The notes: generated by a model from the sequence alone, not told the origin. Shown: positions 604 through 21,713, numbered from the stretch's first letter. The stretch is 21,713 nt of DNA from a virus (IMGVR_UViG_3300048997_000096:1-21713), one strand, 5' to 3'. Program-made: numbers and translations.

Positions 604-1770
604 ATGCCAACAATCAAAGAAATAGCTCACAAAGAAATCGTCACACTTCAAAATACGAAGAATCTCAAAGCTTACTCCAGAGCGACAACCGTTTATAAAC
701 TGCCTTCGATTAGTGATAAAACTCTTTTTATCACTGGTTGTGTCCATAATCACTCTGGCTATGATTGTCTTGTTCGTCAGATGGTGACGGGATTTGTGCA
801 AGCAAATATAAACTTTAGAATCAACAATAACTGCCATGCTGACGAATTCAAGAATGCTTTGCATAAGAAAGAGGATCAGTGGGAAATAATAATTAAAACC
901 CCAGCATCCCTTTTCAAGTATAACGTAAACAAGAAATCAATCCTGATAGCCATGTGGGAAGCCGATTACCTCGATCCTGCTTGGGTTTCTGAGATGAACA
1001 AAGCTTTTGCGATCATTACCCCTTCCACCTGGAGCAAGGCCAGCTTCATCAAGCATGGGGTTACAGTTCCAATCCACGTTGTCCCTCTTGGTTACGATCC
1101 TCTCGTTTTCAACCCTCAAAGTCCCTACGTTCCTGAAGTACCTTTTAGGGCGTTTGATTCAAAAGCTGATCCAGGAAGCTCGCTGACTCTCACAAAACCC
1201 TGTACCTTTGGCGTGGCTGCGGCATTGGGGGATGGAGGCATACGAAAGAACGTCCATTACACCATCGAATGCTTCCAGAAGGCATTCCAATACGAAAACG
1301 TCAGACTCAAGATCAAGCTTGGTGCAAAGGACAATTTGGGCATAAACGACAATCGAATTGAAATAACCAAAGCAACCTTGACTGAACATGAACTTGCTGA
1401 CTGGTACAGGAGTCTAGATGCTTACGTGCATTTGTCTGCAGCCGAGGGTTGGGGCCTGCACGTTGTAGAAAGCATGGCCTGTGGTGTTCCAGCCATTTCC
1501 ACCACCTATTCCTCCATGCAGGACTACATGAGCGAAGAAATCGGTATCGTTGTAGATCATGAAGAAATTGACGTGGATAATTGGGTTTACAAAGGGAAAC
1601 AATGCAAACCTGTTGAAGAGAGCGTTATTTCGGCTTTACAGTGGGCAAACACCCATCAGGAAGAAATGAAGTTGAAAGGTGAATGGGCTGCATTGAAAGC
1701 CAAGAACTATCCTTGGAAGATTTTTGGTAAGAACCTGCTAGACATCCTGCACGTCTACGACATTTTATAA
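604..1770 (+). CDS. GT4-family glycosyltransferase
   Basis: This 388-residue protein is a retaining, GT-B-fold glycosyltransferase that would transfer a sugar from a nucleotide sugar to an unknown acceptor. The key evidence is the GT4 donor-site motif at residues 281-294 (EGWGLHVVESMACG), which contains the E-x7-E pair, followed by VPAIST. Upstream there is a typical linker region (ITPSTWSKASFIKHGV, VVPLGYDP) of the two-domain fold. There is no signal peptide or membrane helix, so it should act in the cytoplasm. In phages such enzymes glycosylate virion proteins or modify DNA or host surface sugars; which applies here cannot be read from the sequence. The start lies four bases after TATAAATA and lacks a clear Shine-Dalgarno. 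Its 3' end overlaps the convergent sigma-like gene by 16 bases with no terminator between. Confidence 0.88.
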   Translation: MPTIKEIAHKEIVTLQNTKNLKAYSRATTVYKLPSISDKTLFITGCVHNHSGYDCLVRQMVTGFVQANINFRINNNCHADEFKNALHKKEDQWEIIIKTPASLFKYNVNKKSILIAMWEADYLDPAWVSEMNKAFAIITPSTWSKASFIKHGVTVPIHVVPLGYDPLVFNPQSPYVPEVPFRAFDSKADPGSSLTLTKPCTFGVAAALGDGGIRKNVHYTIECFQKAFQYENVRLKIKLGAKDNLGINDNRIEITKATLTEHELADWYRSLDAYVHLSAAEGWGLHVVESMACGVPAISTTYSSMQDYMSEEIGIVVDHEEIDVDNWVYKGKQCKPVEESVISALQWANTHQEEMKLKGEWAALKAKNYPWKIFGKNLLDILHVYDIL

Positions 1771-2117
1771 CTTTTATAATCTTCTTCTCTCATCTTCTTT
1801 TTCAGGGATTCGATCAAATCATAATAACGTTTATCCATATTCCAGGTATATTTCCAGTGATTGAGAATTACAGTTGTGAAGTAAGAAAAGCAACTGCCTT
1901 TGTTATATCGGAAATTGTGTTGCTTCATCAAACAGATCATGATGGCTTCCTGAATGAAATCTTCTTTGCCCATTCCAGTTGAATAGAACTTGTACTTGAG
2001 CATGAGGTTCTTGGCAATAAGGCCGATGGCTGTTATGAACTCATTAGCCTCTGTCTTATCATTACGATATTTCTCAAGTATATCTAGCAGATCTTTTTCT
2101 TTCAGATATTCAGCCAA
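1755..2117 (-). CDS. sigma-factor region-2 protein, resembling T4 late sigma gp55
   Basis: A 120-residue protein with the core of a sigma-70 region 2: DFIQE at 53-57 followed by FRYNKGSCFSYFTTVILNHW at 69-88, which matches the family pattern D-L-I-Q-E ... F-D-x-x-x-G-x-x-F-x-x-Y. It has only region 2 and no regions 3 or 4. That, the N-terminal helix and the overall order closely parallel T4 gp55, the sigma subunit for phage late promoters, although gp55 is longer (185 residues). The expected role is to bind host RNA polymerase and recognise a minimal -10 element. It is the last gene of a minus-strand operon, and its ATG lies in the 3' end of the upstream gene (2110-2301). It is convergent with, and overlaps, the GT4 gene. 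A generic phage sigma-like protein is the alternative. Confidence 0.7.
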   Translation of the reverse strand: MAEYLKEKDLLDILEKYRNDKTEANEFITAIGLIAKNLMLKYKFYSTGMGKEDFIQEAIMICLMKQHNFRYNKGSCFSYFTTVILNHWKYTWNMDKRYYDLIESLKKKMREEDYKSYKMS

Positions 2118-2301
2118 GTATATTCTTTTCTCTTAAAGTCCACTCCCCATTGAAATGAACCTTATATCTACTCTGCATCTCTCTCGTTAATAAAGCCTTT
2201 ATCTGATCCTCAATAACTTTCTGAACCTGCTGCTGATCCAGACTGATCGTATATGTCTTCTGATTCACAACACAATTAAACTGATATATCTTTTGCATCA
2301 T
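2110..2301 (-). CDS. small hypothetical protein (63 aa)
   Basis: A 63-residue protein starting MMQKIYQFNCVVNQKTYTIS. The sequence suggests a short beta-rich N-terminus followed by a charged helix (DQQQVQKVIEDQIKALLTRE). Its start overlaps the 3' end of the 54-residue gene upstream by 26 bases, and its end overlaps the sigma-like gene by eight bases, so the three are very probably co-translated. A GGAGA lies directly before the tandem ATGs, so the second ATG is the better spaced start. No family is recognised. Position next to a gp55-like sigma makes an accessory role in late transcription conceivable but unsupported by sequence. Confidence 0.6.
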   Translation of the reverse strand: MMQKIYQFNCVVNQKTYTISLDQQQVQKVIEDQIKALLTREMQSRYKVHFNGEWTLREKNILG

Positions 2302-2440
2302 TCTCCATTTCTCTCAACTTGGTTTCCAGTTCCTCAATTTTCTTCTCGTGCTTCTCTAGATGAATCCGAAACCAGATGTACAATCTTTCCAGCTTACCAT
2401 TATGCCTCACAAGTTGTCTTTTTATTTGTTCTGGTGTCAT
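2276..2440 (-). CDS. small coiled-coil-like protein (54 aa)
   Basis: A 54-residue protein beginning MTPEQIKRQLVRHNGKLERL, with a strongly charged second half (HLEKHEKKIEELETKLREME) that should form an amphipathic helix or short coiled coil. It was found by reading the gap between two longer minus-strand genes. Its ATG overlaps the TGA of the upstream GT9-like gene in an ATGA arrangement (2437-2440), a strong sign of a real coupled gene. Its 3' end overlaps the next gene. No family is recognised. Confidence 0.6.
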   Translation of the reverse strand: MTPEQIKRQLVRHNGKLERLYIWFRIHLEKHEKKIEELETKLREMENDAKDISV

Positions 2441-3447
2441 AACTGAATTCCCCCATTCTTGATCCCCGTTCTTATGTCTTCAACTATCATCTGTGGATCA
2501 ATATCCAAGCTGCATTGGCAAAACGTATAATTCTCTTCCTTAACGTAAACTGGCAATTCGCACATCCTTTTCCCTTGATCTTGTCCATCATTGATAGCAC
2601 TAACCCTTGTCTTCCAACAACTCTGATTCAAAGCACATTTATACAATCCAATCCTATTGTACTTGTGCAGGTTATGATATTGACTCCACCACATAGGCTC
2701 AGATGCATTGCCAGTACAAAAATAATTCTTGTCGAATGCTGCACAACAATGAAGTAATGCCGTTATTGGCCCAACTCCAAATGCACACTGACTAGCCAAT
2801 ATCAATAAGTCCCTAATGTTCGTCTTGTCAAAGAGACTTGTTACATTGGGCAAATCCAGAGGCTTATGATTGTGTCCAGGTGCAGTCATCCCAATCTGTA
2901 TAAACTTTATATCAGGGAAACTTCTAACGATCTCCCTGTAATACTCGTGCGGATAACTTTTCGTTGTGTAATCGTTCTTCCATCCCGAATTGATAAGTGC
3001 ATAAGGAAACTTGAAAGGCTTCTCTCTTTTCTCCACATCAGTCAAATAAACCATTGGCTTGTTCTTCGTCATCCTCAACGTCATCCCAATCGTAGATTCT
3101 AAATGCCTGCAATATCCTTCCATGAAATTATTGGTTTCTTGATTACTTCGATTCACCAATGGATAACTAAGCCAAACATCAATCACTTCATTGTTAGCTT
3201 GATGCTTGACAACATAAGGATTGTTATCAAAGATTTCTGGATGGTTACAGAACATCTCAGTTTCAAATAATCCCTTGTATTGTTCATGGAGGCAAGTAAG
3301 AGTTGGGGTAAATACAAGGATGTCTCCAGGACAAAGCAATTCATGCAATCGTAATTTGATTGGGAACTTGCCTGCATCTAATGCTTGTTTGATTTTGTTA
3401 TGTGGGGTTTTTTGATGCCACATATGTTCAACTACGGTTTTGCCCAT
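2437..3447 (-). CDS. GT9-like glycosyltransferase
   Basis: This 336-residue protein resembles the GT9 (heptosyltransferase-like) GT-B fold. Signs are GDILVFTPTL at 41-50 (the GD-x-hydrophobic-x-x-T-P-x-L N-terminal motif), INSGWKNDYTTKSYP at 152-166 with a following strand FIQIG at 182-186, and a segment NVTSLFDKTNIRDLLILASQ at 201-220. GVGPITALLHCCAAF at 224-238 corresponds to the donor-binding GPxTGxxH-type region. Its C-terminal quarter is Cys-rich (CALNQSCW, FCQCS). The start is supported by GGAG four bases before the ATG. It overlaps the HNH gene upstream by 20 bases and the small gene downstream by four. Two different glycosyltransferases in this window suggest a glycan-building role, with unknown acceptor. 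Alternative: a diverged member without activity. Confidence 0.72.
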   Translation of the reverse strand: MGKTVVEHMWHQKTPHNKIKQALDAGKFPIKLRLHELLCPGDILVFTPTLTCLHEQYKGLFETEMFCNHPEIFDNNPYVVKHQANNEVIDVWLSYPLVNRSNQETNNFMEGYCRHLESTIGMTLRMTKNKPMVYLTDVEKREKPFKFPYALINSGWKNDYTTKSYPHEYYREIVRSFPDIKFIQIGMTAPGHNHKPLDLPNVTSLFDKTNIRDLLILASQCAFGVGPITALLHCCAAFDKNYFCTGNASEPMWWSQYHNLHKYNRIGLYKCALNQSCWKTRVSAINDGQDQGKRMCELPVYVKEENYTFCQCSLDIDPQMIVEDIRTGIKNGGIQL

Positions 3448-3868
3448 TCAGCTCCTTTCTTATTATCTCTTCAATGTCTAGTTGGGTTTTGCCTCTATAA
3501 CGTAATTCCCCGATATAGCTTGGGTTTCTCCCCATCTTTATACTCCAGTGTCTTGCACAAAGAGTTACTTCATCAATAGTGTAAAATATTGAGTTTGATC
3601 TGATAAGTCTTTTAGATTCACTCGTTAATACCCATTCGCAATTCTCTTTATTATAACCTTTATCATTGTCCAATCTCGCTAAACTCCAGTCATCTGCTGC
3701 ATGTCCCATGTCATCCCAAAAGTTAATAAACTCCTTCCAGTCTTCACAAACCACTATTCCCTTCCCTCCATAATTCTTGTAATGCTTGCAGTTCACGTTG
3801 CCACATCTCTGTATCATCGCTTCCCAAATGTGATAAGTCCTGCTTTGATATTGCCCATGTCTATACAT
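3428..3868 (-). CDS. HNH-like endonuclease/DNA-binding protein (YGGKGI type)
   Basis: A 146-residue protein of the phage HNH-like group with the pattern Y-x-x-YGGKGI-x-x-C-x-x-W-x-x-F-x-x-F-x-x-D-M-G ... R-x-DN-D-KGY-x-x-x-NC-x-W, seen at residues 30-79. The homologous protein at 18529-18999 shares the same core. Such proteins are usually free-standing homing-type nicking or cleaving endonucleases. The C-terminal part (ITIDEVTLCARHWSI-like, then RNPSYIGELRYRG) looks like a helix-turn-helix target-binding region. It is the first gene of the minus operon with the GT9-like and sigma genes. GGGGG lies five bases before the ATG. A few bases further upstream a GGAG precedes a three-codon mini-ORF. 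Activity is inferred from the family only. Confidence 0.7.
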   Translation of the reverse strand: MYRHGQYQSRTYHIWEAMIQRCGNVNCKHYKNYGGKGIVVCEDWKEFINFWDDMGHAADDWSLARLDNDKGYNKENCEWVLTSESKRLIRSNSIFYTIDEVTLCARHWSIKMGRNPSYIGELRYRGKTQLDIEEIIRKELNGQNRS

Positions 3869-4057
3869 TCATTCCCCCATTTTAATCTCCTATCTATGAT
3901 TGAGTAATGAGAATTGAGAAGGTTATTGCTAAATAAAGATAATTACGAAGGTATTGTCAGCTAATATCACCTAACAACAATCCTACGAGTGTAGAGAAGA
4001 CAGAGAGTGATAGGCAGAGATAAGGCTTGTAAGGGATTTACTATAAGGTAAATAAAA
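3869..4057. other. divergent intergenic region between HNH operon and capsid gene
   Basis: This 189-base AT-rich stretch must hold the promoters of the minus operon and of the capsid gene. I see a TAAATA core at 3930-3935 and GGTAAATA directly before the capsid start, but no convincing -35/-10 pair. There is no further gene in it. Confidence 0.4.
4047..4054 (+). promoter_or_regulatory. late-promoter-like box GGTAAATA before the capsid gene
   Basis: TAAATA lies three bases before the capsid ATG and matches the 3' part of the T4 late element. AAGG at 4045-4048 overlaps the box and could be a ribosome binding site nine bases from the ATG. The match is weaker than at the other sites, so this could be only an A-rich translation start. 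Confidence 0.4.
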
Positions 4058-5521
4058 ATGTATAAAGATTATGAAATTACGGATGAGGAACATGCTGGCG
4101 AACATGGAAAAAAGGTAGGCGATACCATTTCTATGGACGAACAGACAGCCCATCCATTAGTGCTTAACCGTAAGATCAAGCCAAAAGATGATGTTCAACA
4201 AGTTCCCGATTCGTGTATCGAGGAAGTTTATAAAGAAGAAGTGAATCCTCAAGGTGCTAATTATTCACATGCGAAGTCATTGGACAGCAATTTGAAGAGT
4301 GGTATCGAGGATGCAGTAAGAAAAAGCGTGATGCAGCATTTTGCACCAAAGCAGACTCCCAAGAGTCCTGTGAATGCTCAGAGTCCTGCTCAAGTTGGCC
4401 CTGCTCCAATTGCAAATCTTGGCGAATTGCTTTCCACAATGGTACGTGCCAAAAAGTGGAACAATCAAGTCGCTCAAGAACGATTGGTAAAGCATGAAAC
4501 TCTTGCTGTTAAGAAGTTTCCTGGACTGGTTCAGAAAGCTCCATTAGGTGCCTATGAATTTGGTGGTGGTGGTGACGAGGCAGGTGGTTTCTCGGTTTTC
4601 CCAGAATTCATCGATCAAGTTTTCCACGTTCAGAAAGATTATCCTGATCTTTTGAGTCAGACTGTAGTCTTTCCAGCTAACAAAACTTCTACGATTAATT
4701 TCCCAACCTTGAATGAGCCATCTCTTCAGAATGGCCAGCGTCATGGTGGAGTCCAAGCTTTCTATCAGAGTGCAGAAGGTAATGCTTTAAGTAGCTCCTA
4801 CCCAAGCCTCTTGCAGCGTCAATTGATTCTCAAGTCATTGTTTATCTTGACTTACGGATCATTGCAGTTGCTCGAAGATAGCACGATTGGTTTTGAAAAG
4901 TATACTTCTGAGCAATCTGCTCTTGAACTTTTGTGGCAGTTGGATGCTGGTATTATTTCAGGTGCTGGTGGTGCTGAACCACTTGGTATCCTAAATCAAC
5001 CATCATTGATTACTGTTCCGAAGATTACGAGTCAGGCACAGACAGTAAACTTCCAGAATATTACTGATATGTATAATGCTTTGTGGCCACCGTCTCGTAG
5101 ACGTGCAGTTTGGCTTGCAAATCCAGATCAGTGGAATAGTTTGCTACAAATGTCATTCCCAAATGAAGCTGGAACATTCCCAGCTATGAGTTTGAACTAC
5201 GATGTACGGGATTCTGTATATCCTTTGAAACTCTTGGGTAGGCCAGTTATTGAGTGTTTGATGATGCCAGATGCAGGTTTGGAAGGATCTTTGATTCTTG
5301 CAGATATGCAGGCCATGTACACTGCTGTTCATCAGCCTTTTGTACGTGTCGATGTCTCCAATGAATTCCAGTTCGCTACAGCTCAAGTTGCATTCAGATG
5401 GACTTGTCGTTGGGATGCTAACTCTCCTTGGAACGATACCATCGAATCGTTGTCTGGTTGTAACACTTATGGCCCATTCGTGGCTCTAGGACAAACCGGA
5501 TCAAGTTCCGCTTGTCCATAA
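4058..5521 (+). CDS. major capsid protein, HK97 fold
   Basis: A 487-residue HK97-type major capsid protein. The first 160 or so residues are charged, Gln/Pro-rich and low in hydrophobics, as expected of a delta (scaffolding) domain removed by the prohead protease. The mature part begins near the Gly-rich GGGGDEAGGFSVFPEFID at about residues 170-187, matching the family's GG-(F/Y)-L-(V/I)-P start. Later segments GILNQP, a WLANPDQW-type strand and RPVIEC follow the family order. Coat subunits assemble into the icosahedral shell with the portal (20699-) and are processed by the protease (17818-18513). It forms its own transcription unit: a TAAATA box before the start and a strong terminator at 5553-5580. 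It lies 12 kb or more from the protease and portal genes, which is unusual for this family. Confidence 0.9.
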   Translation: MYKDYEITDEEHAGEHGKKVGDTISMDEQTAHPLVLNRKIKPKDDVQQVPDSCIEEVYKEEVNPQGANYSHAKSLDSNLKSGIEDAVRKSVMQHFAPKQTPKSPVNAQSPAQVGPAPIANLGELLSTMVRAKKWNNQVAQERLVKHETLAVKKFPGLVQKAPLGAYEFGGGGDEAGGFSVFPEFIDQVFHVQKDYPDLLSQTVVFPANKTSTINFPTLNEPSLQNGQRHGGVQAFYQSAEGNALSSSYPSLLQRQLILKSLFILTYGSLQLLEDSTIGFEKYTSEQSALELLWQLDAGIISGAGGAEPLGILNQPSLITVPKITSQAQTVNFQNITDMYNALWPPSRRRAVWLANPDQWNSLLQMSFPNEAGTFPAMSLNYDVRDSVYPLKLLGRPVIECLMMPDAGLEGSLILADMQAMYTAVHQPFVRVDVSNEFQFATAQVAFRWTCRWDANSPWNDTIESLSGCNTYGPFVALGQTGSSSACP

Positions 5522-6479: not shown

Positions 6480-6491
6480 ACTAGATAAACA

Positions 6492-9299: not shown

Positions 9300-9589
9300 G
9301 AAAAATCCATAGATTCTGTCATTATTGCTACAGATGAATTTACTGAATAAAAGACAAAACAGGTAGACATCTTACTGAGATTGTTAGTAATATTAAGACA
9401 TGGATGGTAGAGTATTATAATTATCAAAAATGCAGTTGATGTGGGCATCCATTGCCAAGAATCTATGCAAAAGATAGAGTTGAATTCAAGGAAGTTGCAC
9501 GGTAGTTCAGGAAAGTTCGCTTGACGCTCAAGAGGTTGGTAGGGAATTACTGGGAGAGATGACACGGGGCTGAATTGCAGGAAAGCTTC

Positions 9590-9603
9590 GCTGACGCTCA
9601 GGA
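9590..9603. repeat. GCTGACGCTCAGGA dispersed repeat
   Basis: This 14-mer is identical to 11692-11705, with a degenerate copy at 9519-9533 (GCTTGACGCTCAAGA). The 11692 copy lies within the tail-protein gene at the edge of its tandem repeat. Confidence 0.55.
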
Positions 9604-9955: not shown

Positions 9956-9996
9956 GTTTAAACTTGGGATTCAGGGGTTTTCACGGAGTTTTCGTC

Positions 9997-11599: not shown

Positions 11600-13531
11600 T
11601 TATTCCTTATTAAATTGTTTACGTCTCTCGTTCAGTTCTTTGCCCTTCTTGATAAGTAGTTGGATATCTATCTTGGGTTTAGGAATGTTTTGCTGACGCT
11701 CAGGAGTCTCACGACTACCAGGAGTCTCACGACTACCAGGAGTCTCACGACTACCAGGAGTCTCACGACTACCAGGAGTCTCACGACTACCAGGAGTCTC
11801 ACGACTACCAGGAATCTCACGATTACTTGGGGGTATAAGGCTTTGCCTGTCAGCGTTTATTAGGGCGTTTGATTGATTTATAATGTTTATAGGTTGGGAA
11901 GAGGATTTGTTACATCCACAACCTCTTTTCTTTTTTGGTGGGATCACTTCTGTTGCAACTAAAGCTTGGTTTTCGCTGGTGATAGCAGCAAGTAGGTTTT
12001 GTTTTTTTGTAAGCATCAAACTTGAACTAGAATCGGATGAGAAGGGATTAATAGGATTTGAGCAGTCACCACCTGCATCGATTACTACGTGAACATTGCT
12101 ATTACATCTGTTGCAGCCAGATCCATTACCGAATACGCCGCCTCCTTTTGCTATGGTTAGATCAGCTTCGATATGTAGTGGATCACAGGTATAGGTAGCA
12201 GTTTCAGTACCCCAGCTATAGACACAACCAATAACGTTATTGCATACTGGATCACAAGCACCGATAACAAAATTGACATCCATATAACCAGTAGTGAGGC
12301 AGAAGATTTCAACAAAGCCAGTTTGTCCGCAGCAAGTGGGACAACCTGTTAATGGAAAATAACCTTCCCAACCTTGAGAGAAGGGATAGGAAGGAAGTTC
12401 GGTTACACAAGGAAGGATGGGGAATGTGTAGGTTCCATTTATGCCGCAACAATCTGCACCTGTAATAGTCATGGTTACGCAATCTGGACATTCAACATCA
12501 CCATCCTCAGTCAAGCAGCAATAATTTCCCAAGCAGTCACAGGCTTGGCAATCAAGTTCTATTGTCTCTGGTAATCCTGCTATTGAGCTTGTTATTGAGA
12601 ATACTTGATCCCCGCAACAAGAGAAATCATCTGATTGGTAAGTGGCACTGGTTGATGATGGAAGATTTGTTTGTAGTTTTATTGTTGCAGTTGTTTCGCT
12701 TGTAACGTCTAGTCTTAGCATATCATTAGCAACAATACTTGTGAACCATGAGCAATAATTAAATGCTGAAAGTGGTGGGTTCTTAACAAAGCCACCAAGA
12801 TTATTCCATCCAGTCCAGGCACCACTGAAGGGAGTGCCATTTAGCATCCACCCACAGCAAGTTCTAGAGTTACAGCATCTTTGACAATAACCACAAGGTT
12901 CGTCCATTACGTTGGGATAATGCGGGATACTTGAAGGGCCTGGGAATTGGATTGTTAGCCTATAGACACAATCGGGGGTTCCACCTTCTCCATTCGTCAT
13001 ACAGCAAGGGCAAATATCGAGATTTCCACCAACACAAGTGGAGGCATTTACTGCGAATTCATATTCTAAGAAGAAGAGTCCATCATCTTCTCCACAGGAA
13101 CAATCTGTTGGCAAAAGTGGAGGAGGATCGGGTGGGCCAAGAGAGAAATAATTGAATGCTAAGCAGGCACCCAATTCAGCATTCAGATTTCCCATTTTAA
13201 TTCTTAGTGCAAAGCTTTCACAACCTACCCCTGTTGTAAGTGGGATGCATTGGACATCGAAAACAAAAGAACATCTGATTTGGCCTGGGGGGATGAATGA
13301 ACCACCCTTCCAACCGCATGCTATACCTGCTGAATCACAAGGCCAAACACCTGAAATATCACCAGTAGCAGGAGGAGTACCGGATATGACTTCTATAACA
13401 GCGAGTGCATTTGGTGGAGTGTTGAAGGGAAAACGGCAACATCCGCATTGCTCTGGAAGGGGATTACATTTACATGGACAGCAGGGATCACAAAAACCTA
13501 TTCTACAAACGTTATTTGGACAATCACTCAT
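11600..13531 (-). CDS. large Cys-rich tail-associated protein with SRETPG repeats
   Basis: A 643-residue protein with about 55 cysteines, many as CC or CxxC pairs, from the N-terminus (CPNNVCRIGFCDPCCPCKCN) to about residue 540. Inside are modules of the type CPDCVTMTITGADCCGINGT, beta-rich and similar in style to Cys-rich extracellular or tail proteins I associate with planctomycete phages. A Ser run (SSDSSSS) and a Cys-Gly segment (KKKRGCGCNKS) precede a disordered tail with six identical SRETPG units encoded by an 18-bp tandem repeat (11703-11828), ending in a charged helix. No signal peptide. AGAGG before the ATG supports the start. It follows the Ser/Cys-rich protein gene by 15 bases in the tape-measure operon, so a tail-tip, fibre or adhesion role is likely but unproven. 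Confidence 0.72.
   Translation of the reverse strand: MSDCPNNVCRIGFCDPCCPCKCNPLPEQCGCCRFPFNTPPNALAVIEVISGTPPATGDISGVWPCDSAGIACGWKGGSFIPPGQIRCSFVFDVQCIPLTTGVGCESFALRIKMGNLNAELGACLAFNYFSLGPPDPPPLLPTDCSCGEDDGLFFLEYEFAVNASTCVGGNLDICPCCMTNGEGGTPDCVYRLTIQFPGPSSIPHYPNVMDEPCGYCQRCCNSRTCCGWMLNGTPFSGAWTGWNNLGGFVKNPPLSAFNYCSWFTSIVANDMLRLDVTSETTATIKLQTNLPSSTSATYQSDDFSCCGDQVFSITSSIAGLPETIELDCQACDCLGNYCCLTEDGDVECPDCVTMTITGADCCGINGTYTFPILPCVTELPSYPFSQGWEGYFPLTGCPTCCGQTGFVEIFCLTTGYMDVNFVIGACDPVCNNVIGCVYSWGTETATYTCDPLHIEADLTIAKGGGVFGNGSGCNRCNSNVHVVIDAGGDCSNPINPFSSDSSSSLMLTKKQNLLAAITSENQALVATEVIPPKKKRGCGCNKSSSQPINIINQSNALINADRQSLIPPSNREIPGSRETPGSRETPGSRETPGSRETPGSRETPGSRETPERQQNIPKPKIDIQLLIKKGKELNERRKQFNKE
11692..11705. 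repeat. GCTGACGCTCAGGA dispersed repeat, coding copy
   Basis: This is an exact copy of the non-coding repeat at 9590-9603, here encoding the PERQQ junction at the edge of the tandem repeat. Confidence 0.55.
11703..11828. repeat. 18-bp tandem repeat, six perfect units plus one degenerate
   Basis: The unit GGAGTCTCACGACTACCA is repeated exactly from 11703 to 11810, with a diverged seventh unit at 11811-11828. On the minus strand each unit encodes one Pro-Gly-Ser-Arg-Glu-Thr period. Identity even at silent sites points to recent slippage. Confidence 0.95.
11837..11854. repeat. AAGGCTTTGCCTGTCAGC dispersed repeat, coding copy
   Basis: This is an exact copy of 8030-8047. Here it encodes ADRQSL of the Cys-rich protein's tail. 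Confidence 0.6.
11857..11873. repeat. TTATTAGGGCGTTTGAT dispersed repeat, coding copy
   Basis: It shares 17 bases with 7477-7494 and at least 20 with 8964-8983 (the match continues into TTGA). It encodes the QSNALIN segment of the Cys-rich protein. Confidence 0.65.
11878..11892. repeat. TTATAAACATTATAA motif, reverse orientation, coding copy
   Basis: TTATAATGTTTATAG differs at one position from the reverse complement of the 15-mer. It directly follows the GGGCGTTTGAT copy and encodes INIIN. Confidence 0.5.
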
Positions 13532-14777: not shown

Positions 14778-15176
14778 ATGGCAAACGATGATAGCTTCTT
14801 TGATAATGTTTATAAGACTTTGGGATGTTGGGAGTGGACGGGGAAAAGAAGGGGAAAGTATGGAATTTTTGATGGAGAATTAGCTCATGCTTATAGTTGG
14901 AAGTTGCATAAGGGGGAAACTTCCAAATTTGTCTGTCATCGCTGTGATAATCCTTTATGTGTAAATCCTTCGCATTTGTATTTATCTGATAAGTTTATTG
15001 AAACGGTGGAATGGAAGATGCGGGAGGAGAAGCATCGAGGTGGAAAGTGGAAATTGACGAAGAAGGATATTATAAACATTAGAAAGATGCTTGCTTGTGG
15101 GAAGACAAAGACATCAATTTCTAAAGTTTATAAAATCACTACAGCTACTTTGGATCGTAATCTTAAACGAAGTTAA
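14778..15176 (+). CDS. HNH homing-type endonuclease with C-terminal HTH
   Basis: A 132-residue protein with the HNH_3-type core CHRCDNPLCVNPSHLYL at residues 53-69 (H54, N58, N63 and H66 among the expected residues), preceded by CWEWTGKR...YG, which is the usual N-terminal strand. Residues 92-130 (KLTKKDIINIRKMLACGKTK ...) form a helix-turn-helix DNA-binding segment. It should cut or nick DNA near its own gene and spread by homing. It is squeezed into the minus-strand tail operon in the opposite direction: 22 bases from the divergent start on its left, while its TAA shares TTAA with the tape-measure stop on its right. The start follows TATATTTTATAT with no Shine-Dalgarno. Two of the dispersed TTATAAACATTATAA-like motifs (14801-14815, 15070-15084) lie inside it. 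Confidence 0.82.
   Translation: MANDDSFFDNVYKTLGCWEWTGKRRGKYGIFDGELAHAYSWKLHKGETSKFVCHRCDNPLCVNPSHLYLSDKFIETVEWKMREEKHRGGKWKLTKKDIINIRKMLACGKTKTSISKVYKITTATLDRNLKRS
14801..14815. repeat. TTATAAACATTATAA motif, reverse, in the HNH gene
   Basis: TGATAATGTTTATAA has one mismatch to the reverse complement of the 15-mer; it encodes DNVYK near the start of the HNH protein. Confidence 0.4.
15070..15084. repeat. TTATAAACATTATAA motif, forward, in the HNH gene
   Basis: TTATAAACATTAGAA has one mismatch to the 15-mer; it encodes IINIRK of the helix-turn-helix. The protein motif is itself common in HNH C-termini, so this copy may be coincidence. Confidence 0.35.
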
Positions 15177-17293
15177 GCCATTCCTAGATTGGCAGTATTA
15201 GCTGCGATAATCTTGAGTGCTAATCCACTTGCAGAATTATCGATAGCCCCTGCCATAGCAGTAGCAAGGTTCAAATTACCACCAGTTGGGGATGTTGGCC
15301 CCATACCTGCATTTTTATATTGCTGCATTCTGAGTTGCATTTCACCTTCTGGCATGAAGGATTGTTGAAATTGTCCCCAAGCTTCGGTTATACCAGAAAG
15401 TCTTGGAGCATTTCTTGGAGGCAAAGCGGGTTGTCTATTTGCTCCCCATGCTTGTTGAGATAGATATTCGTCATTGCTTTTACCCATACCAAACCATTGC
15501 AAGACTCTGTTAGTTCCGTGTCCAAAGTTCTGCATTTGTCTTCCGAACCAACTAGGAGATTGATTCAATGTAAACGATCCATCATCATTCTTGGTTGCTC
15601 CTGATCCTTCTGTCATTAGTTGAGCTGCTTTACCTAGTCCAAGTGTGGCTGCTCCTGCTGCTATAGGAATAGAAAGGTATGGATGTCTTACAGCAAGGCC
15701 ACCCAACCCACCAATACCTGTTCCGAATGCTTTTTTCGCAGCCCAATTGGCAGCAAGTCCTCCACCGATGCCAAGAGCAGTATTCCCAACTAATTCTTGT
15801 TGTCCTGGAGACATATTATCCCATTTACTACCTGCCCAATCGGCTGCATTGCCTGCACTTCTAACTACTGGAAGAAATGCCATTCCTATTTTGGCTAATA
15901 GTGCGTTTATTTTTCCTTCCATGATTTCAAAATCTCTTGGTGCAGCAAGATGTGCGGATCTAACAGCAGTAGCAGTAAACCCGACGGCTATCAATGCGGT
16001 TTTGAACCCAGCAGCTATTTCAGATGCTTTAATTAAGCCTGTTCCTATTGCTCCACCTGCTATATTGAGGCCCCTTCTCATAGAGCCTAGATTTAATGCA
16101 CCACTTTCATCGCTAAGAAAGTTTCTTATGCTTCCTGGACTTGTTCCACCTGCATTTGTTCTAATGTTTAGTTGTGGATCAGATAAATGCACTGATGGTG
16201 GGCCAAGTTGGCTTCCTCCTGGTTGGTTGGCCATTGCTCTCCATGCATCAATACGTTCCTGATTTTTCCTGATTTTTTCTGCTTGTTCTGCTAAATGTTC
16301 TGGAGAAAATTGGGGAGGAGCGGAACTAAACTGTGCTAATTCGGCTTCATTAGGGGATTCAAAATCAGGTGGCATTTGGAATGGCTTTGGCTTTTGGGCA
16401 TATTTCCTTTCCAGTCTTTCTATTTCTTCTGCATTCGTTCCTGATTGTTCTGGAAGATCAATATTATCTGTTGGCTCTAATCCGTGCATCCTTCTTCGAG
16501 CTTCTTTTGTTTCAGGTGTTTGTTCGCCTCTTAGAAAGCTGGAAAGTCTAGGGGAGAGCCATTTCCTAGCTTGGGAAAATCGTTGTCCAAGAACATCTAG
16601 ATTGATTGCTGCACTTTCACCCGTACCGAACGATTTTCCTGCTCTCAGAGCGTTAGCTTTCCAGTTCTCATAACCCTCTTGTGTCCAAGTATCTTCTTTG
16701 TCCCCCAAATCGATGGTTCCACGAGGAGTACCAAGCGTTTCAGGATCAATCTGCCAAGGTTTCTTTGCTTTAGTTTTCTTTCGAGCTTCTTCCCATTCTC
16801 TTTCAATGGCAACAGATGTTCCATGTGTATCAATAAACTCTCCAAAATCACGATAAGCACCATGCGGACGATGTGGAGCATCTGATGACAAAGGTGGCAT
16901 CTGATATTTGGATGAAGTTTTTGATCGAAATCCCCTTAACATTGAGGCAATAGCTGCACCTGTTAAGGCACCAATTCCACCTCCTGATGAAACTGGACTT
17001 TGCAAATTAGCTTTGTGCATTGCTTGCTGCATCAATGCAAGCATCTTGTCATTCTGGCTAGTAATCTTTTTCAACTGATTCAATTGTTGAACATCAATGC
17101 TGATACTTCTATCATTAGCAGTCTTGTTTGTAGTATTGGTTTTTATGGTTGGAGAGTATTCACTACCAGTTGTAGCAATCGGGTTCTGATTAATTCTCTT
17201 GATTTGTTTTTCTAAATCATCAAGTTGAATCTTGAGTTTGTCTAAAGCTTCGGTTTTAACTTTGATTTCTAGTGTTGCGTATTGTGCTGGCAT
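15173..17293 (-). CDS. tail tape measure protein
   Basis: A 706-residue protein with an N-terminal coiled-coil-like region (LKIQLDDLEKQIKRINQN, about 20-37), a long polar Pro/Gln-rich middle and a C-terminal third rich in Gly/Ala helices. The stretch KINALLAKIGMAFLPVVRSA followed by GNAADWAGSKWDNMSPGQQE and a hydrophobic Gly/Ala segment is typical of tape-measure proteins, where a helix x-x-x-G-x-A-(L/F)-LPV precedes W-x-x-x-SP-x-x-Q. It sets tail length and is carried in the tail tube; 706 residues suggest a tail of about 100 nm by the usual rule. AGGAG six bases before the ATG supports the start, and GGTAAATA lies 15 bases upstream. It heads the minus tail operon and its stop overlaps the convergent HNH stop. 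Confidence 0.8.
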   Translation of the reverse strand: MPAQYATLEIKVKTEALDKLKIQLDDLEKQIKRINQNPIATTGSEYSPTIKTNTTNKTANDRSISIDVQQLNQLKKITSQNDKMLALMQQAMHKANLQSPVSSGGGIGALTGAAIASMLRGFRSKTSSKYQMPPLSSDAPHRPHGAYRDFGEFIDTHGTSVAIEREWEEARKKTKAKKPWQIDPETLGTPRGTIDLGDKEDTWTQEGYENWKANALRAGKSFGTGESAAINLDVLGQRFSQARKWLSPRLSSFLRGEQTPETKEARRRMHGLEPTDNIDLPEQSGTNAEEIERLERKYAQKPKPFQMPPDFESPNEAELAQFSSAPPQFSPEHLAEQAEKIRKNQERIDAWRAMANQPGGSQLGPPSVHLSDPQLNIRTNAGGTSPGSIRNFLSDESGALNLGSMRRGLNIAGGAIGTGLIKASEIAAGFKTALIAVGFTATAVRSAHLAAPRDFEIMEGKINALLAKIGMAFLPVVRSAGNAADWAGSKWDNMSPGQQELVGNTALGIGGGLAANWAAKKAFGTGIGGLGGLAVRHPYLSIPIAAGAATLGLGKAAQLMTEGSGATKNDDGSFTLNQSPSWFGRQMQNFGHGTNRVLQWFGMGKSNDEYLSQQAWGANRQPALPPRNAPRLSGITEAWGQFQQSFMPEGEMQLRMQQYKNAGMGPTSPTGGNLNLATAMAGAIDNSASGLALKIIAANTANLGMA

Positions 17294-17308
17294 ATGATTC
17301 TCCTATCA

Positions 17309-17316
17309 TATTTACC
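17309..17316 (-). promoter_or_regulatory. late-promoter-like box GGTAAATA before the tape measure
   Basis: On the minus strand GGTAAATA is followed by 15 bases and the ATG, with AGGAG (17300-17304) between. Here the spacing leaves room for a short leader with a ribosome binding site, unlike at the other boxes. Confidence 0.4.
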
Positions 17317-17359
17317 AGCACAGACTATAAAATTAGATTTGGTATCACTACTATATTTA

Positions 17360-17809
17360 ATGGGCCAAATTAAATATAAATGTTCAAAATGTGGTGAAAT
17401 CAAATGGGAAACCGATTTTTATAAAACTAGCACAGCGTACTGCAAGCCATGCAGAAAGCAAAGCAACAAAGACTACCGCCAGAAGCTTGGAAAAGAGTTT
17501 GCAGCCATCGTTAAGCGAAGCAGAGACAAGTATTACAACCCCTTGAAAGCCGAGATATTGGAAGCTTATGGCAATAGTTGCTCATGCTGCGGAGAAGATA
17601 TAAAGGAGTTTTTAACAATAGATCATATTCACAATGATGGGGCAGAAGAACGAAGTCATTCCAATTGGAGCCAACTAACGTTTTACAGAAGATTGAAAAA
17701 AACAAACTTCCCAAAAGACAGATATAGACTATTGTGCATGAACTGTAATTGGGCCAGAGGGGTGTTCGGATATTGTCCACATCAAAAGGAAATAGAATTG
17801 CTACCATAA
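17360..17809 (+). CDS. HNH endonuclease with zinc ribbon
   Basis: A 149-residue protein with an N-terminal zinc ribbon (CSKCGE at 8-13, CKPC at 28-31), a helical spacer, then an HNH region: CSCCGED (74-80), FLTIDHIHNDG (84-94) and LLCMNCNWARG (125-135). This matches the phage HNH type with D-H-x-x-N/H-D-G and C-x-x-C-N. The ATG at 17360 is chosen; an in-frame upstream start at 17282 would run through the divergent tape-measure start and gives a hydrophobic, unlikely N-terminus. No good Shine-Dalgarno is seen. It lies 66 bases from the divergent tape-measure gene and ends eight bases before the protease start, with the protease late-type box spanning its stop region. Probably a free-standing mobile endonuclease. 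Confidence 0.8.
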   Translation: MGQIKYKCSKCGEIKWETDFYKTSTAYCKPCRKQSNKDYRQKLGKEFAAIVKRSRDKYYNPLKAEILEAYGNSCSCCGEDIKEFLTIDHIHNDGAEERSHSNWSQLTFYRRLKKTNFPKDRYRLLCMNCNWARGVFGYCPHQKEIELLP

Positions 17810-17812
17810 ATA
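17805..17812 (+). promoter_or_regulatory. late-promoter-like box CATAAATA before the protease
   Basis: CATAAATA ends five bases before the ATG at 17818 and contains the stop codon of the HNH gene (TAA 17807-17809). There is no Shine-Dalgarno between. Confidence 0.5.
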
Positions 17813-17817
17813 TCTTT

Positions 17818-18513
17818 ATGAAAGAATCATCATCGTGGTGTAGCTCCATTCCCGTTTATACTAAGGATTCCCTCTGCAAAGAGATTGATACGCTCAGCAA
17901 GAAACATAAGTTTGCTCGAAAAGCGTTTAATAGTGTTACTTCTGAGAAAGATGTTGATAAGAGATCAGAAGTATCAATCATTTCAGATGAGTCTATTATT
18001 GATCTGGAAAATGAACGGGTTATTATTTCCGGTATCAATACAGGAATATATCAAAAGAATCCTGTTGTTTATTGGAATCACAATTTCGAGATGCCAATTG
18101 CTAAATGTTTATGGTTAAAACATCGTGGCAGTCAGTTATTGGGAAAAGCCATTTATAGTAAGACTGATTTTGCAGATACCATTTGGACACTTATTTGCGA
18201 AGACATTTGCAAAGCCAAATCAATTGGTTATCTGGAACAGAAGGTTGTTAGGGGACAACAAGATGAACGGGTTGTTACTCAATCATTGATGATTGAATAT
18301 AGTTGTTGTGGCAATGGTGTTAATCCTGCAGCTCTTGTTGAGAAGGTTAATAAGTCATTTTTCTCGCTAATATCAGGCCAAACTGTGCAGGATTACGAGA
18401 GTGAATTGATGCAGAAGCGAGTTGAACGAATCATGAACGAAGTGGACATTGATGGAATAATCAATGAGACAGTTGGCAGACTCAAGGGCCAACTAGAATA
18501 CTACATTGATTAA
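17818..18513 (+). CDS. HK97-type prohead protease
   Basis: A 231-residue serine protease of the HK97 prohead (S78) family that cleaves the capsid delta domain during maturation. Residues 66-95 contain ERVIISGINTG ... YWNHNFEMPIAK with the candidate catalytic His88. LMIEYSCCGNGVNPAAL at 158-173 contains the candidate Ser162 in the usual E-x-S-x-x-x-x-x-x-x-N-P-x-A context. The C-terminal third is a charged helical tail. The start at 17818 is preferred over in-frame 17749, because 17749 lies within the HNH coding region and 17818 follows the CATAAATA box. Its substrate would be the capsid protein at 4058-5521, encoded far away. Confidence 0.82.
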   Translation: MKESSSWCSSIPVYTKDSLCKEIDTLSKKHKFARKAFNSVTSEKDVDKRSEVSIISDESIIDLENERVIISGINTGIYQKNPVVYWNHNFEMPIAKCLWLKHRGSQLLGKAIYSKTDFADTIWTLICEDICKAKSIGYLEQKVVRGQQDERVVTQSLMIEYSCCGNGVNPAALVEKVNKSFFSLISGQTVQDYESELMQKRVERIMNEVDIDGIINETVGRLKGQLEYYID

Positions 18514-18528
18514 TGTTATAAAAGGGTA

Positions 18529-18999
18529 ATGAACACAAGAAATTATAAACATGGCCACAACACCAAGGCTTATCAAAGTCCTGAGTATGTTGCTTGGCAA
18601 AGAATGAAACAAAGATGCGATCCCAAATACCCACGATACGATGAATGGGGAGGAAGAGGGATAAATGTTTGCGATAGGTGGGCGGACTCATTTACTAACT
18701 TCTATGAAGACATGGGAAATAAGCCATCACCGCAACATAGCCTTGATAGGATCAAGAATGATAAAGGTTATAATCCTCCGAATTGCCGATGGGCAACACC
18801 AAAAGAACAGGCACAAAATAGAAGGCAACCTCGTGGTGAATCCTTATGGCGTTCTAAATTAACAGAACAGGATGTTATAACTATTAGAAGCAAGAGTACA
18901 GGTGAACGAGGTGAAATTGCGAGATTTGCTAAGGAATACAGAGTAGATCCATCTACTATGGCAGATGTTATAAATCGCAAGAATTGGAAACATTTATAA
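18529..18999 (+). CDS. HNH-like endonuclease (YGGRGI type) with C-terminal HTH
   Basis: A 156-residue protein with the same core as 3428-3868: YPRYDEWGGRGINVCDRWAD at 34-53, then FTNFYEDMG at 55-63, SLDRIKNDKGY at 71-81 and NCRWAT at 85-90. A C-terminal segment (LTEQDVITIRSKS ... IARFAKEYRVDPSTMADVIN) is a helix-turn-helix of the kind found in homing endonucleases. The start at 18529 has AAGGG five bases upstream (AAAAGGGTAATG). It is 15 bases after the protease stop, between protease and the small gene at 19011, an intrusion into the head gene cluster. It is a paralogue, or independent arrival, of the HNH at 3428. Confidence 0.8.
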   Translation: MNTRNYKHGHNTKAYQSPEYVAWQRMKQRCDPKYPRYDEWGGRGINVCDRWADSFTNFYEDMGNKPSPQHSLDRIKNDKGYNPPNCRWATPKEQAQNRRQPRGESLWRSKLTEQDVITIRSKSTGERGEIARFAKEYRVDPSTMADVINRKNWKHL

Positions 19000-19010
19000 A
19001 GGTTATAAAA

Positions 19011-19268
19011 ATGAGGATCGCTAAAGACTCAAAGGTGCAACTAACAGAAGGTGTTAAAGTTTATATGAATGAGTTTGGGATGTGGCAGATGTTTGCTACT
19101 CATTATAAACCCGAAGAAGAGGCACAAAGACTAACAGATGAAAACGAAGCAATTGAAGCTGGTTTCGTCAAACATGAAGGTTACTGGATGTCAAAGATGG
19201 ATGCGGACATGGTTAAGCGATGTGAAGAAGAGATGCAGGAACACAAGAGAATAATTATAGAGGGATAA
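19011..19268 (+). CDS. hypothetical protein before the gp10-like gene (85 aa)
   Basis: An 85-residue acidic protein beginning MRIAKDSKVQLTEGVKVYMN. The first half looks beta-like, the second half is a charged helix (DMVKRCEEEMQEHKRIIIEG). The ATG at 19011 is chosen for AAAGG eight bases upstream; in-frame 18984 lies in the HNH gene. Its stop (19266-19268) overlaps the next ATG by one base. No family is recognised. Position suggests a head-tail accessory protein. Confidence 0.55.
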   Translation: MRIAKDSKVQLTEGVKVYMNEFGMWQMFATHYKPEEEAQRLTDENEAIEAGFVKHEGYWMSKMDADMVKRCEEEMQEHKRIIIEG

Positions 19269-19597
19269 TGTCATCAGAATCGTGGTTTCAAAATTTTAAC
19301 GACGAATTATCCAAAAGGATAGACAAGGTTGGAAGACACATAAGGGACAAGATCAAAGAATCCATTGATATTCCTTATCCACCTCCTTCTGCTCCAGGTG
19401 AACCCCCACATAAACGCACTGGATACCTGCAAAGGAATGTCCGGTTCAAACGTGAGCCATTTACCAAAGATTTGGAAATCGTAAGTGAGGCGGAATATTC
19501 AAGCTATTTGGAGCATGGAACCAAGAAGATGGCTGCACGTCCTTTCATGCATCCCCAATTGAATATCGACGAAATAAACAACATATTGAACGATTAG
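19268..19597 (+). CDS. HK97 gp10-like head-tail/tail-completion protein
   Basis: A 109-residue protein of the HK97-gp10 type. The typical elements are an N-terminal helix (NDELSKRIDKVGRHIRDKIK), the segment SAPGEPPHKRTGYLQRNV at 42-59, and YSSYLEHGTKKMAARPFMHP (Y-x-x-x-x-E-x-G-T-x-x-x-x-x-R-P-F-x-x-P) at about 77-96. Family members help join head and tail. The length is near the usual 100-140. The ATG overlaps the preceding stop codon (TAATG) and GGG is just upstream. The end overlaps the convergent FN3-fusion gene by four bases. Confidence 0.82.
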   Translation: MSSESWFQNFNDELSKRIDKVGRHIRDKIKESIDIPYPPPSAPGEPPHKRTGYLQRNVRFKREPFTKDLEIVSEAEYSSYLEHGTKKMAARPFMHPQLNIDEINNILND

Positions 19598-20286
19598 GTT
19601 ACACCTATAGAAATCTCGTTGGATCTGTCACTTTCTCCAACACTATCCACAGCAGTCATTGCAAAATAATAAGTAGTCAAGGGAACAAAACCCGAAACAG
19701 TAAAGGGATTTGTCGTTATATTGGTTGTAAGGAGGCTCAAACCAGTTGGGGTATGTCCTGCATAAAGTCTATAATAATCAGCACCTTCTGATCCAGTGTA
19801 GTGGAAAGTAACACTGCCTGATAGTGGTTGGTTCCAAGAAACTATAACGGGAGGATCAGGAATTTCAGGACATGGCGTTGGATCAATTTTCCTATTCAAT
19901 TTTGCCTTTAGCTCCAATCGTTTCACATAAACCATTCTTTCCTGAACTTCTTCCGTAACTCCTGAGTTCTTGATAAGGATAGTGTTCATAACGTAATCCG
20001 CCCACTTTACGCCATCAAACAAGTCCCACAATGCTTCCGCAAGATTCTCCACTACCAATGCATCCATCCCGTAAATGGTGAATTTGAAATAGTAATCGGT
20101 TACTATGCAGGCAGTGTTCATTGCATAATATGGATTAGTTTCAACTGGCTGGCCAACACTGGCATACGGAGCATCTTCAATTTTGAGTTTCTCATTCAAT
20201 AATCCCAAACCCATTCTTCCAAGAGGGAGATCAGTTAGTTGATTGGCTGCATAGTAGGAATAGATGGCTAATAACGGTGTACTCAT
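19594..20286 (-). CDS. tail-terminator-like domain fused to fibronectin type III domain
   Basis: A 230-residue protein. Residues 1-120 show a layout like DUF3168/tail-terminator proteins: an N-terminal helix, PYASVG, an alternating beta segment (CIVTDYYFKFTIYGMDALVV) and a helix (ENLAEALWDLFDGVKW). Residues about 140-230 are a fibronectin type III domain (PDPPVIVSWNQPLSGSV; YYRLYAG; VSGFVPLTTYYFAMTAVDSV; GESDRSNEISIGV). FN3 domains on phage virion proteins are thought to bind carbohydrate surfaces. The start at 20286 is chosen because the upstream in-frame codon (20343) runs through the neighbouring gene's start; the sequence before it (GATAAATATTATTATGAG) is identical to that before the divergent gene. 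Function of the first domain is inferred. Confidence 0.6.
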   Translation of the reverse strand: MSTPLLAIYSYYAANQLTDLPLGRMGLGLLNEKLKIEDAPYASVGQPVETNPYYAMNTACIVTDYYFKFTIYGMDALVVENLAEALWDLFDGVKWADYVMNTILIKNSGVTEEVQERMVYVKRLELKAKLNRKIDPTPCPEIPDPPVIVSWNQPLSGSVTFHYTGSEGADYYRLYAGHTPTGLSLLTTNITTNPFTVSGFVPLTTYYFAMTAVDSVGESDRSNEISIGVT

Positions 20287-20336
20287 AATAATATTTATCA
20301 ACAAACATGCTCGAAAATGATAAATATTATTATGAG
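20282..20336. promoter_or_regulatory. perfect inverted repeat carrying divergent late-type boxes and start codons
   Basis: TGATAAATATTATTATGAG occurs on the plus strand at 20318-20336 and on the minus strand at 20300-20282, perfect 19-bp arms with a 17-base spacer. Each arm contains GATAAATA (20319-20326; 20299-20292) and, five bases later, the ATG of the gene reading outward. No Shine-Dalgarno is present on either side. Confidence 0.75.
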
Positions 20337-20676
20337 AGAACAACTGCTTTCAAATGTGATTCAGATCATTTCTAAGAACCTAGCACAGGGGCCAATCTTT
20401 AATTGGCAAGAGAATCTTACTAAAAGTGCAAAAATAAAGGCATTAGTATTGCCTGCATCCCAGGGTGCTGCCAAAATTCTATACGACAAGTTTAATCAGA
20501 CAGTTGATTGGAAAATAATGATTAACAATCCCCATGATGTGGTAACAGATGGAGACTTGATTTACTTTGTGGATCAGGATGTAAAAATGATGGTGGTTAC
20601 GACTAGAAAAACGAATCCTAATATGATTGGTGGCTTCTCTGTTATTTATGCACGGACTTGGACTGGTAAAACATAA
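20332..20676 (+). CDS. neck/head-closure-like protein
   Basis: A 114-residue protein starting MREQLLSNVIQIISKNLAQG, then beta-rich: IKALVLPASQG, LYDKFNQTVDWKIMINN, HDVVTDGDLIYFVDQDVKMM and FSVIYARTW. This order (two turns of strand around a gD-x-(I/V)-x-(F/V) turn) resembles head-closure or stopper proteins of long-tailed phages, which cap the connector after DNA packaging. The match is by layout only. The start at 20332 is chosen because it follows GATAAATA by five bases in the inverted repeat. It lies 22 bases before the portal gene. Confidence 0.45.
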   Translation: MREQLLSNVIQIISKNLAQGPIFNWQENLTKSAKIKALVLPASQGAAKILYDKFNQTVDWKIMINNPHDVVTDGDLIYFVDQDVKMMVVTTRKTNPNMIGGFSVIYARTWTGKT

Positions 20677-20683
20677 CCAAGGG

Positions 20684-20691
20684 AATAAATA
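20684..20691 (+). promoter_or_regulatory. late-promoter-like box AATAAATA before the portal gene
   Basis: AATAAATA ends seven bases before the portal ATG at 20699. The purine stretch AAGGGA is about 15 bases from the ATG, too far for a usual Shine-Dalgarno. Confidence 0.45.
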
Positions 20692-20698
20692 ACATTAT

Positions 20699-21713
20699 AT
20701 GAATATCTTTCAAAAGGCCAGTGAATTATTTAACAACGTTTTCGGTGAGAAGACTGTTGCAAAGAAATCTTTTTTTGCAGATGACGTAGTAACCAAATCC
20801 TACGGTGATTACGCTTTCTTCGGTGGATCAAACAATTTTCCCTATCTCAATACTAACAATCAATCCAATATGCGTGTAGGTGATTTGAACCTAGTAAACG
20901 CATTATTCAATGATACCGTCTATTCCTGCTTACGTAGAACGTCTGATGCAATGGTAGCAATTCCTTTCAACCTCAAAGGAAAAAAGAAAACATTAAATGC
21001 TGAACCGGTTACTTTGCGAAGGGATCATCCCCTTATCTATCTTCTGGAAAATCCTAACAAAGATATGAACTGGAATGAGTTCATTACAGTTGTCAATATG
21101 TATTTGGAAATCAACGGCGATGCTTATATCAAAAAGGATTTCAACGAAGCTTTGGGAACACCAATAGCATTATGGCCCCTTGAGACTTATAAAGTTCGTC
21201 AAGAGTTTGATGAGAATGGCAACCTAATTGGCTATAAATATCAGAAGGGTTTGGAGGAAGTATTTTATAAGCCAGAACAAATTATACACATTATGGCTTA
21301 TCCTGATCCGATGATGCCTTATCATAAGGGTTTTTCGGTATGTCAAGCAGCATGGCAAGAAATCCAGCTTGGTTTGCGTGAAGTTACCATGATGAATCAG
21401 CAGCTAGAGAATAATGCAACTCCGTCCTTTATCGTTCAACCATTGATGCCTGTTGGCCCTGTTCAAGCTGAAAGACTTGAGAAGAGTTTACGTCAGAAGT
21501 TCAAGGAAGGTGGGCCATATGTACCTCCGCACAAGATGGAGGTTGAGCAATTAACTCCACCACAAGATACTAAGCAAATTGAGTTTTATAGTCTCGTTAG
21601 AAAGATCATTGCTGTTGGTATGGGTGTTCCACTTGGAGTTCTCGAACCAGAATCAGAATCTTATGCATCCGCATTCCAAGCATGGAAAAACTTTATTGAT
21701 TTGAACGTGTTGC
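20699..21713 (+). CDS. HK97-type portal protein (partial, runs off the right edge)
   Basis: The first 338 residues of a portal protein are present; the frame is open to the window end. Portal rings form the DNA entry vertex of the head and bind the terminase. Typical elements: NDTVYSCLRRTSDAMVAIPF (about 70-89), HPLIYLLENPNKDMNWNEFI (about 110-129) and INGDAYI, IALWPLETYKVR with GYKYQKG, then EQIIHI. After that come the helix region MMNQQLENNATPSFIVQP and a VPLGVLEPES segment with the usual A-x-W near 330. The family length is about 400-450 residues, so roughly a hundred residues should follow beyond the edge. It is preceded by AATAAATA and lacks a near Shine-Dalgarno. A large terminase gene would be expected nearby, outside the window. 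Confidence 0.9.
   Translation, partial: MNIFQKASELFNNVFGEKTVAKKSFFADDVVTKSYGDYAFFGGSNNFPYLNTNNQSNMRVGDLNLVNALFNDTVYSCLRRTSDAMVAIPFNLKGKKKTLNAEPVTLRRDHPLIYLLENPNKDMNWNEFITVVNMYLEINGDAYIKKDFNEALGTPIALWPLETYKVRQEFDENGNLIGYKYQKGLEEVFYKPEQIIHIMAYPDPMMPYHKGFSVCQAAWQEIQLGLREVTMMNQQLENNATPSFIVQPLMPVGPVQAERLEKSLRQKFKEGGPYVPPHKMEVEQLTPPQDTKQIEFYSLVRKIIAVGMGVPLGVLEPESESYASAFQAWKNFIDLNVL

Follow-up and report, generated by a model that had tools for sequence, protein, structure and literature searches.

A gp55-like sigma factor and TAAATA boxes set close to start codons in a genome fragment of an HK97-type phage

We analyzed a viral record of 21,713 nucleotides (nt), IMGVR_UViG_3300048997_000096:1-21713, referred to here in its whole length as the window; it is a fragment, and its portal gene is cut by the contig end. 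The window encodes a small sigma factor of the phage T4 gp55 kind and carries, 3-15 nt before eight ATG codons, the TAAATA core of a T4-type late promoter. All eight boxes lie at the places and on the strands that an earlier note on this DNA had given for them. Listed below are the sigma gene, the boxes with the genes or open reading frames (ORFs) that they precede, an inverted repeat, and one unboxed neck gene; Shine-Dalgarno motifs (SD), lengths in amino acids (aa) or base pairs (bp) and profile matches are given where they apply.

1755..2117, minus strand: gp55-like late sigma factor, 120 aa, TTG start, sigma region 2 only (assigned by PHROG profile and fold)
105..112, plus strand: box TATAAATA, 12 nt before ATG 125, with AAGGA between box and ATG; the ATG opens a 50-aa ORF on the plus strand that is not a virion gene
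592..599, plus strand: box TATAAATA, 4 nt before ATG 604, overlapping the stop codon of the preceding gene, no SD
604..1770, plus strand: glycosyltransferase of GT4 type, boxed (Pfam Glyco_trans_1_4, E=3.7e-12; PHROG glycosyltransferase)
4047..4054, plus strand: box GGTAAATA, 3 nt before ATG 4058
4058..5521, plus strand: HK97-fold major capsid protein, boxed (Pfam Phage_capsid PF05065, E=3.1e-27)
17309..17316, minus strand: box GGTAAATA, 15 nt before ATG 17293, with the SD AGGAG between
15173..17293, minus strand: tail tape measure protein, boxed (PHROG tape measure, E=3.5e-5)
17805..17812, plus strand: box CATAAATA, 5 nt before ATG 17818, overlapping the stop codon of the preceding HNH gene, no SD
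17818..18513, plus strand: head-maturation-protease-like protein, boxed (PHROG phrog_11321, E=5.7e-10, and weak head/protease profiles, all matched on the longer frame 17749-18513)
20292..20299, minus strand: box GATAAATA, 5 nt before ATG 20286, in the left arm of the inverted repeat
19594..20286, minus strand: minor tail protein, boxed (PHROG minor tail protein, E=9e-5)
20319..20326, plus strand: box GATAAATA, 5 nt before ATG 20332, in the right arm of the inverted repeat
20332..20676, plus strand: small protein just before the portal gene, boxed (by position; weak PHROG match, E=0.033)
20684..20691, plus strand: box AATAAATA, 7 nt before ATG 20699, no SD
20699..21713, plus strand: HK97-type portal protein, boxed, cut by the contig end (Pfam Phage_portal, E=6.8e-34)
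20282..20336: perfect 19-bp inverted repeat spanning 55 bp, arms 20282-20300 and 20318-20336 with 17 nt between
19268..19597, plus strand: neck / tail-completion protein, unboxed, with SD (PHROG Neck1, E=2.7e-12)

TAAATA as such occurs in the window at chance level (18 seen, 18.06 expected). Its placement departs from chance: eight of the 18 copies lie 3-15 nt before one of 32 hand-listed starts, where 0.21 would be expected (Poisson P ~1e-10), and a box stands at a spacing of 3-7 nt before six of these 32 starts, against an expected 0.066. The earlier note's judgment that such placement is unlikely by chance is borne out, and its figure of one TAAATA per 1.4 kb per strand needs correction to one per 2.4 kb, so that the hexamer is rarer than claimed. 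The motif search against shuffles proposed there was run on the upstream stretches of the window, and over the 25 nt before the 32 starts TAAATA shows the highest enrichment of any hexamer (30-fold). When only these AT-rich upstream stretches were shuffled (5000 rounds), a harder control, the mean was 1.45 boxes and the maximum 6; the enrichment and shuffle figures were obtained with four of the 32 start positions off, the 6/32 and 8/32 counts with corrected positions. With ORFs called mechanically instead of picked by hand, 4 of 28 starts are boxed at a spacing of 3-7 nt (0.06-0.12 expected, P 9e-6); this list omits the 50-aa ORF, the open-ended portal gene, and the inner start at 20332.

Among the boxed genes, six of eight encode virion proteins or belong to the virion cluster (capsid, tape measure, protease-like, minor tail, pre-portal, and portal), and the remaining two, the 50-aa ORF and the glycosyltransferase, do not. 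Few early genes can be recognized in the fragment. Of the boxed genes named in the earlier note, capsid, tape measure, protease-like protein, portal, and glycosyltransferase are boxed here; the Neck1-matching gene is unboxed.

The spacing from TAAATA to ATG is 3-7 nt in six of the eight boxes, and 12 and 15 nt in the other two. The first box base is free, being T, T, C, G, G, and A in six boxes, with GGTAAATA in the remaining two, and no -35 element is evident ahead of the window boxes. The first base of the 8-bp T4 box is at -13, roughly one turn of the helix ahead of where transcription starts (PMC2988020). By that geometry, transcription would begin about 6 nt after the box, and a spacing of 5 would set +1 on the A of the ATG, as predicted for the genes starting at 17818, 20286, and 20332. 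Of the six close-boxed genes, five lack an SD-like motif, and gene 4058 shows no more than an AAGG that continues into the box; an SD is present in both wider-spaced boxed genes and in 15 of 24 unboxed genes of the window. For gene 125 the strict T4 start falls downstream of the SD, which makes a leader there uncertain. The inverted repeat contains both boxes and both divergent ATGs (20286, minus; 20332, plus), and is likely a two-way promoter for the minor tail gene and the pre-portal gene.

The window sigma belongs with the gp55-like late sigmas, but it is not a full gp55. It matches the PHROG family phrog_234, 'late sigma transcription factor', at E=3.4e-6 (1.3e-7 in a six-frame search), and stays below the cut-off for Pfam Sigma70_r2 (17.8 of 24 bits). 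An AlphaFold2 model made with 46 family loci as the alignment reaches a predicted local distance difference test (pLDDT) of 91.9. Its leading matches in a PDB fold search are sigma-factor chains, with modest E-values of 0.1 and up, and the highest TM-score among the matches listed, 0.60, belongs to T4 gp55 (7d7c_F). The comparison to gp55 by profile and predicted structure that the earlier note had called for thus comes out in its favor. Conserved N-proximal aromatics at positions 10 and 23 mark the gp55 family (PMC2988020), and Y4 and Y17 of the window sigma align with the same 13-residue spacing. Region 2 is the sole sigma domain of the protein, in keeping with the family. By alignment, gp55 segment 3 (about 141-156) is absent, the protein ending soon after region 2. 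The gp55-like assignment therefore stands on profile, fold, and the N-terminal aromatic pair; segment 3 and the clamp-binding tail, both of which T4 gp55 has, are missing from the protein. Aligning the family profile with T4 gp55 in hhalign is weak on its own (probability 16%, P 0.0016). The nearest relatives among annotated phages include the annotated late sigmas of Ochrobactrum phage OC and of a cyanophage, together with that of LR756511, an unannotated 595-kb uncultured phage. Identity to the sigmas of jumbo phages is 20-31% over the alignment, and in a sigma tree the window protein forms a long branch next to the jumbo clade, where its placing is unsure. Neither gp33 nor gp45 was recognized among the searched ORFs of this 21.7-kb fragment. 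A close sigma match to the window lies at 1342-1740 of L212 (38% over 79 aa), a 4.9-kb fragment on which another gene looks like the tail-sheath gene found in L019.

In the positive controls, a T4 late region and phage OC, TAAATA is the top hexamer within 55 nt of starts. The late box reported in the literature is TATAAATA for T4 (PMC2988020), and NATAAATA, with a free first base, for the cyanophages S-PM2 and Syn9 (PMC2984593). The window resembles the T4 gp55/gp33/gp45 system in its region 2 protein of the gp55 kind, in an 8-bp TATAAATA-like box followed by an AT-rich stretch and lacking a -35 element, and in boxes ahead of virion genes on both strands. It differs in having an HK97-type rather than a gp23 head, and in the distance from box to ATG. 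In T4 and its kin the box stands mostly 20-50 nt before the start, with room for a leader; control spacings were mostly 21-28 nt in T4, 18-52 in OC, and mostly 15-38 in a cyanophage. The T4-type late regulon claimed in the earlier note is accordingly retained as to box and sigma, and departs from T4 in that six of eight boxes lie only 3-7 nt from the ATG. The cyanophages share the free first base, which six of the eight window boxes show, and differ in being T4-like myoviruses. phiKZ and AR9 likewise have phage-specific late initiation, but use phage-encoded multisubunit polymerases and other motifs. Leaderless phage messenger RNAs (mRNAs) are known in general. Leaders in AR9 are 26 nt or longer (PMC5312081). 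A limited search of the open-access literature turned up no paper linking gp55 to leaderless late mRNA or to a late regulon in a siphovirus.

The same arrangement recurs in other phages that carry this sigma. The first sigma alignment was too diverse for scanning, and a scan with degenerate DNA patterns identified 120 IMG/VR loci with the same sigma family. The long records behind these loci were examined piecewise, and the expectations given here are maxima derived from genome-wide or further-upstream TAAATA frequency. Boxed starts at a spacing of 3-7 nt number 23 in G005 (390 kb; at most 1.6 expected, P 6e-19), 9 in G006 (at most 0.8, P 1e-7), 12 in G019 (at most 1.5, P 7e-8), and 12 in LR756511 (at most 0.6, P 4e-12). 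These members of the jumbo clade share with the window the sigma family and the TAAATA-N4-6-ATG spacing, and differ in their very large genomes and, in G005 and G006, a gp23-type capsid. TAAATA outnumbers every other hexamer of the same letters at 3-7 nt in all four. For G005, G006, and G019 the box peak is sharp, at 4-6 nt before mechanical ORF starts, and is missing before ATGs that do not start ORFs; pooled over these three, an SD-like motif precedes 6/44 boxed and 411/862 unboxed genes. Across nine control phages without annotated gp55, several of them AT-rich, 1 of 424 starts is boxed at that spacing, the absence of gp55 being by annotation rather than by sensitive search and phage G having another sigma factor. 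TAAATA pooled over all 120 loci gives only weak bumps, at 4-5 and 17-19 nt, because most of the loci are small neighborhoods. In G006, a close box (TAAATA-ATA-ATG) precedes a coiled-coil-like gene of 304 aa that sits immediately before the gp23-type capsid gene and, judged by this position alone, is likely a scaffold gene. The HK97-type capsid (PF05065) was not found in the 49 other sigma-bearing records checked, many of which are fragments.

Two further observations concern these genomes. G019 has a divergent close-boxed pair (L184, 17454 minus and 17502 plus) whose ATGs are nearly as far apart as those of the window repeat, and no perfect inverted repeat between them. In the sigma carriers L142-L151 (G005) and L140-L141 (G002, G004), TATATA or CTATAT leads the non-SD hexamers found upstream of starts, and is perhaps another promoter class.

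We propose, with a probability of roughly 0.65, that the window holds a gp55-type late regulon with leaderless late mRNAs in an HK97-type phage. A minimal gp55-type sigma, comprising region 2 and a short N-terminal segment, would replace the host sigma on the host RNA polymerase, read the 8-bp TATAAATA-like box without a -35 element, and turn on the virion genes. If transcription starts where T4 geometry predicts, its first base would in six of the eight genes coincide with the start codon or lie no more than about 2 nt away from it. The late mRNAs of these six would have no leader and would be translated with no ribosome-binding site; the two genes whose boxes stand 12 and 15 nt away would retain a very short leader, with an SD. 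The 55-bp inverted repeat would drive its two divergent tail/head genes both ways. The boxed genes are presumably late, a timing that gene content supports in the window, with six of eight in the virion cluster, and does not support in the jumbo phages.

Several observations weigh against this proposal. A box at -12 to -5 occupies the position of the SD, so that a missing SD is partly a by-product of the box and not independent evidence. With a TTG start and 120 aa, little of the sigma is left beyond region 2, and the hydrophobic/acidic C-terminal segment that binds the clamp is absent: the protein ends ...KKKMREEDYKSYKMS and not in the SLDFLYEANND type of T4. Among other carriers of a gp55-like sigma, G047 and the GC-rich G010 have no box peak, and G049 has boxes at 10-49 nt (8.5-fold) and no leaderless peak. 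The capsid and sheath genes checked in the jumbo relatives have no close box and mostly an SD-like leader. Family calls for 40 boxed jumbo-phage genes leave nearly all without an assigned function, and boxed genes as heads of transcription units give a weakly positive result in G005 and a null result in G006, G019, and LR756511.

The TAAATA before the ATG could instead be a signal for translation start, A/T-rich and Kozak-like where an SD is missing, and not a promoter. Six boxes at 3-7 nt, mostly without an SD, suit this explanation, as does the finding that the boxed jumbo-phage genes are not clearly first in transcription units. It is opposed chiefly by two observations: the same hexamer is an established late promoter core, tens of nt upstream, in the leadered T4-like relatives, and the close peak tracks phages with a gp55-like sigma and is absent in AT-rich controls without annotated gp55. 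The spacing also ranges from 3 to 15, and TAAATA outnumbers other hexamers of like composition where the close peak lies; we regard a translation signal as unlikely. We give a slim chance to the boxes being -10 elements of the host's sigma, with leaderless transcription and a phage sigma that reads something else. TAAATA differs from TATAAT in the place of the last T, no -35 element is seen, and sigma-70-type sites in the window are no commoner than in shuffles (43 seen, 48 expected), even though TATAAATA resembles a -10 element and promoter-like sites abound in AT-rich DNA; the link with a gp55-like sigma across unrelated phages would then be coincidence. That these are ordinary T4-type late promoters with leaders, the true starts lying further downstream or transcription beginning elsewhere, is very improbable: an SD between box and ATG at 125 and 17293 would agree with it, but genes 604, 17818, and 20332 have no further in-frame ATG for several tens of residues past the first, and the jumbo-phage peak at 4-6 nt rests on mechanical ORF starts.

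Close relatives of the window sigma, capsid, portal, and glycosyltransferase were not found in an IMG/VR peptide scan, nor was a close relative of the capsid in a GTDB scan; tblastn against annotated phages gave only distant matches, for portal and capsid, and none for the tape measure. Four HNH/endonuclease-VII-like ORFs are interspersed among the structural genes (3428-3868, minus; 14778-15176; 17360-17809; 18529-18999), three recognized by profile and the fourth (18529) by its sequence likeness to that at 3428. An ORF at 9964-11310 has only a weak phage-integrase SAM-like match (E=0.006). The motif GGGCGTTTGAT occurs five times exactly (1148, 7484, 8971, 9888 on the minus strand, and 11863), where 0.25 would be expected with one mismatch allowed, and three of the five copies sit within a longer TTATTAGGGCGTTTGAT-like repeat; the longer form, searched as a clue to the host, had no match elsewhere in IMG/VR and GTDB. 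Repeats of the form AGGAAAGCTTCGCTGACGCTCAGGA lie at 9509-9533, 9579-9603, and 11681-11705, two of them inside a long, little-coding stretch ahead of the integrase-like ORF. At 11701-11826, an 18-nt tandem repeat codes for GSRETP units close to the C-terminal end of a Cys-rich protein of 643 aa.

More broadly, a branch of the gp55 family across jumbo phages and at least one HK97-type phage may run a late regulon that needs no clamp. Fusion of the promoter box to the start codon would make its late mRNAs leaderless, and their translation would be set apart from that of SD-dependent host and early genes. We hold this wider view tentatively, at somewhat short of even odds. If true, the T4 late switch would extend beyond T4-like viruses with a replication clamp, and a stripped-down gp55 would operate in other types of phage, where a whole class of late messages would begin at the start codon. 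Control of phage transcription would then be coupled to a different mode of translation start, and the late genes of jumbo phages would be readable from sequence alone, through TAAATA 4-6 nt before the ATG.

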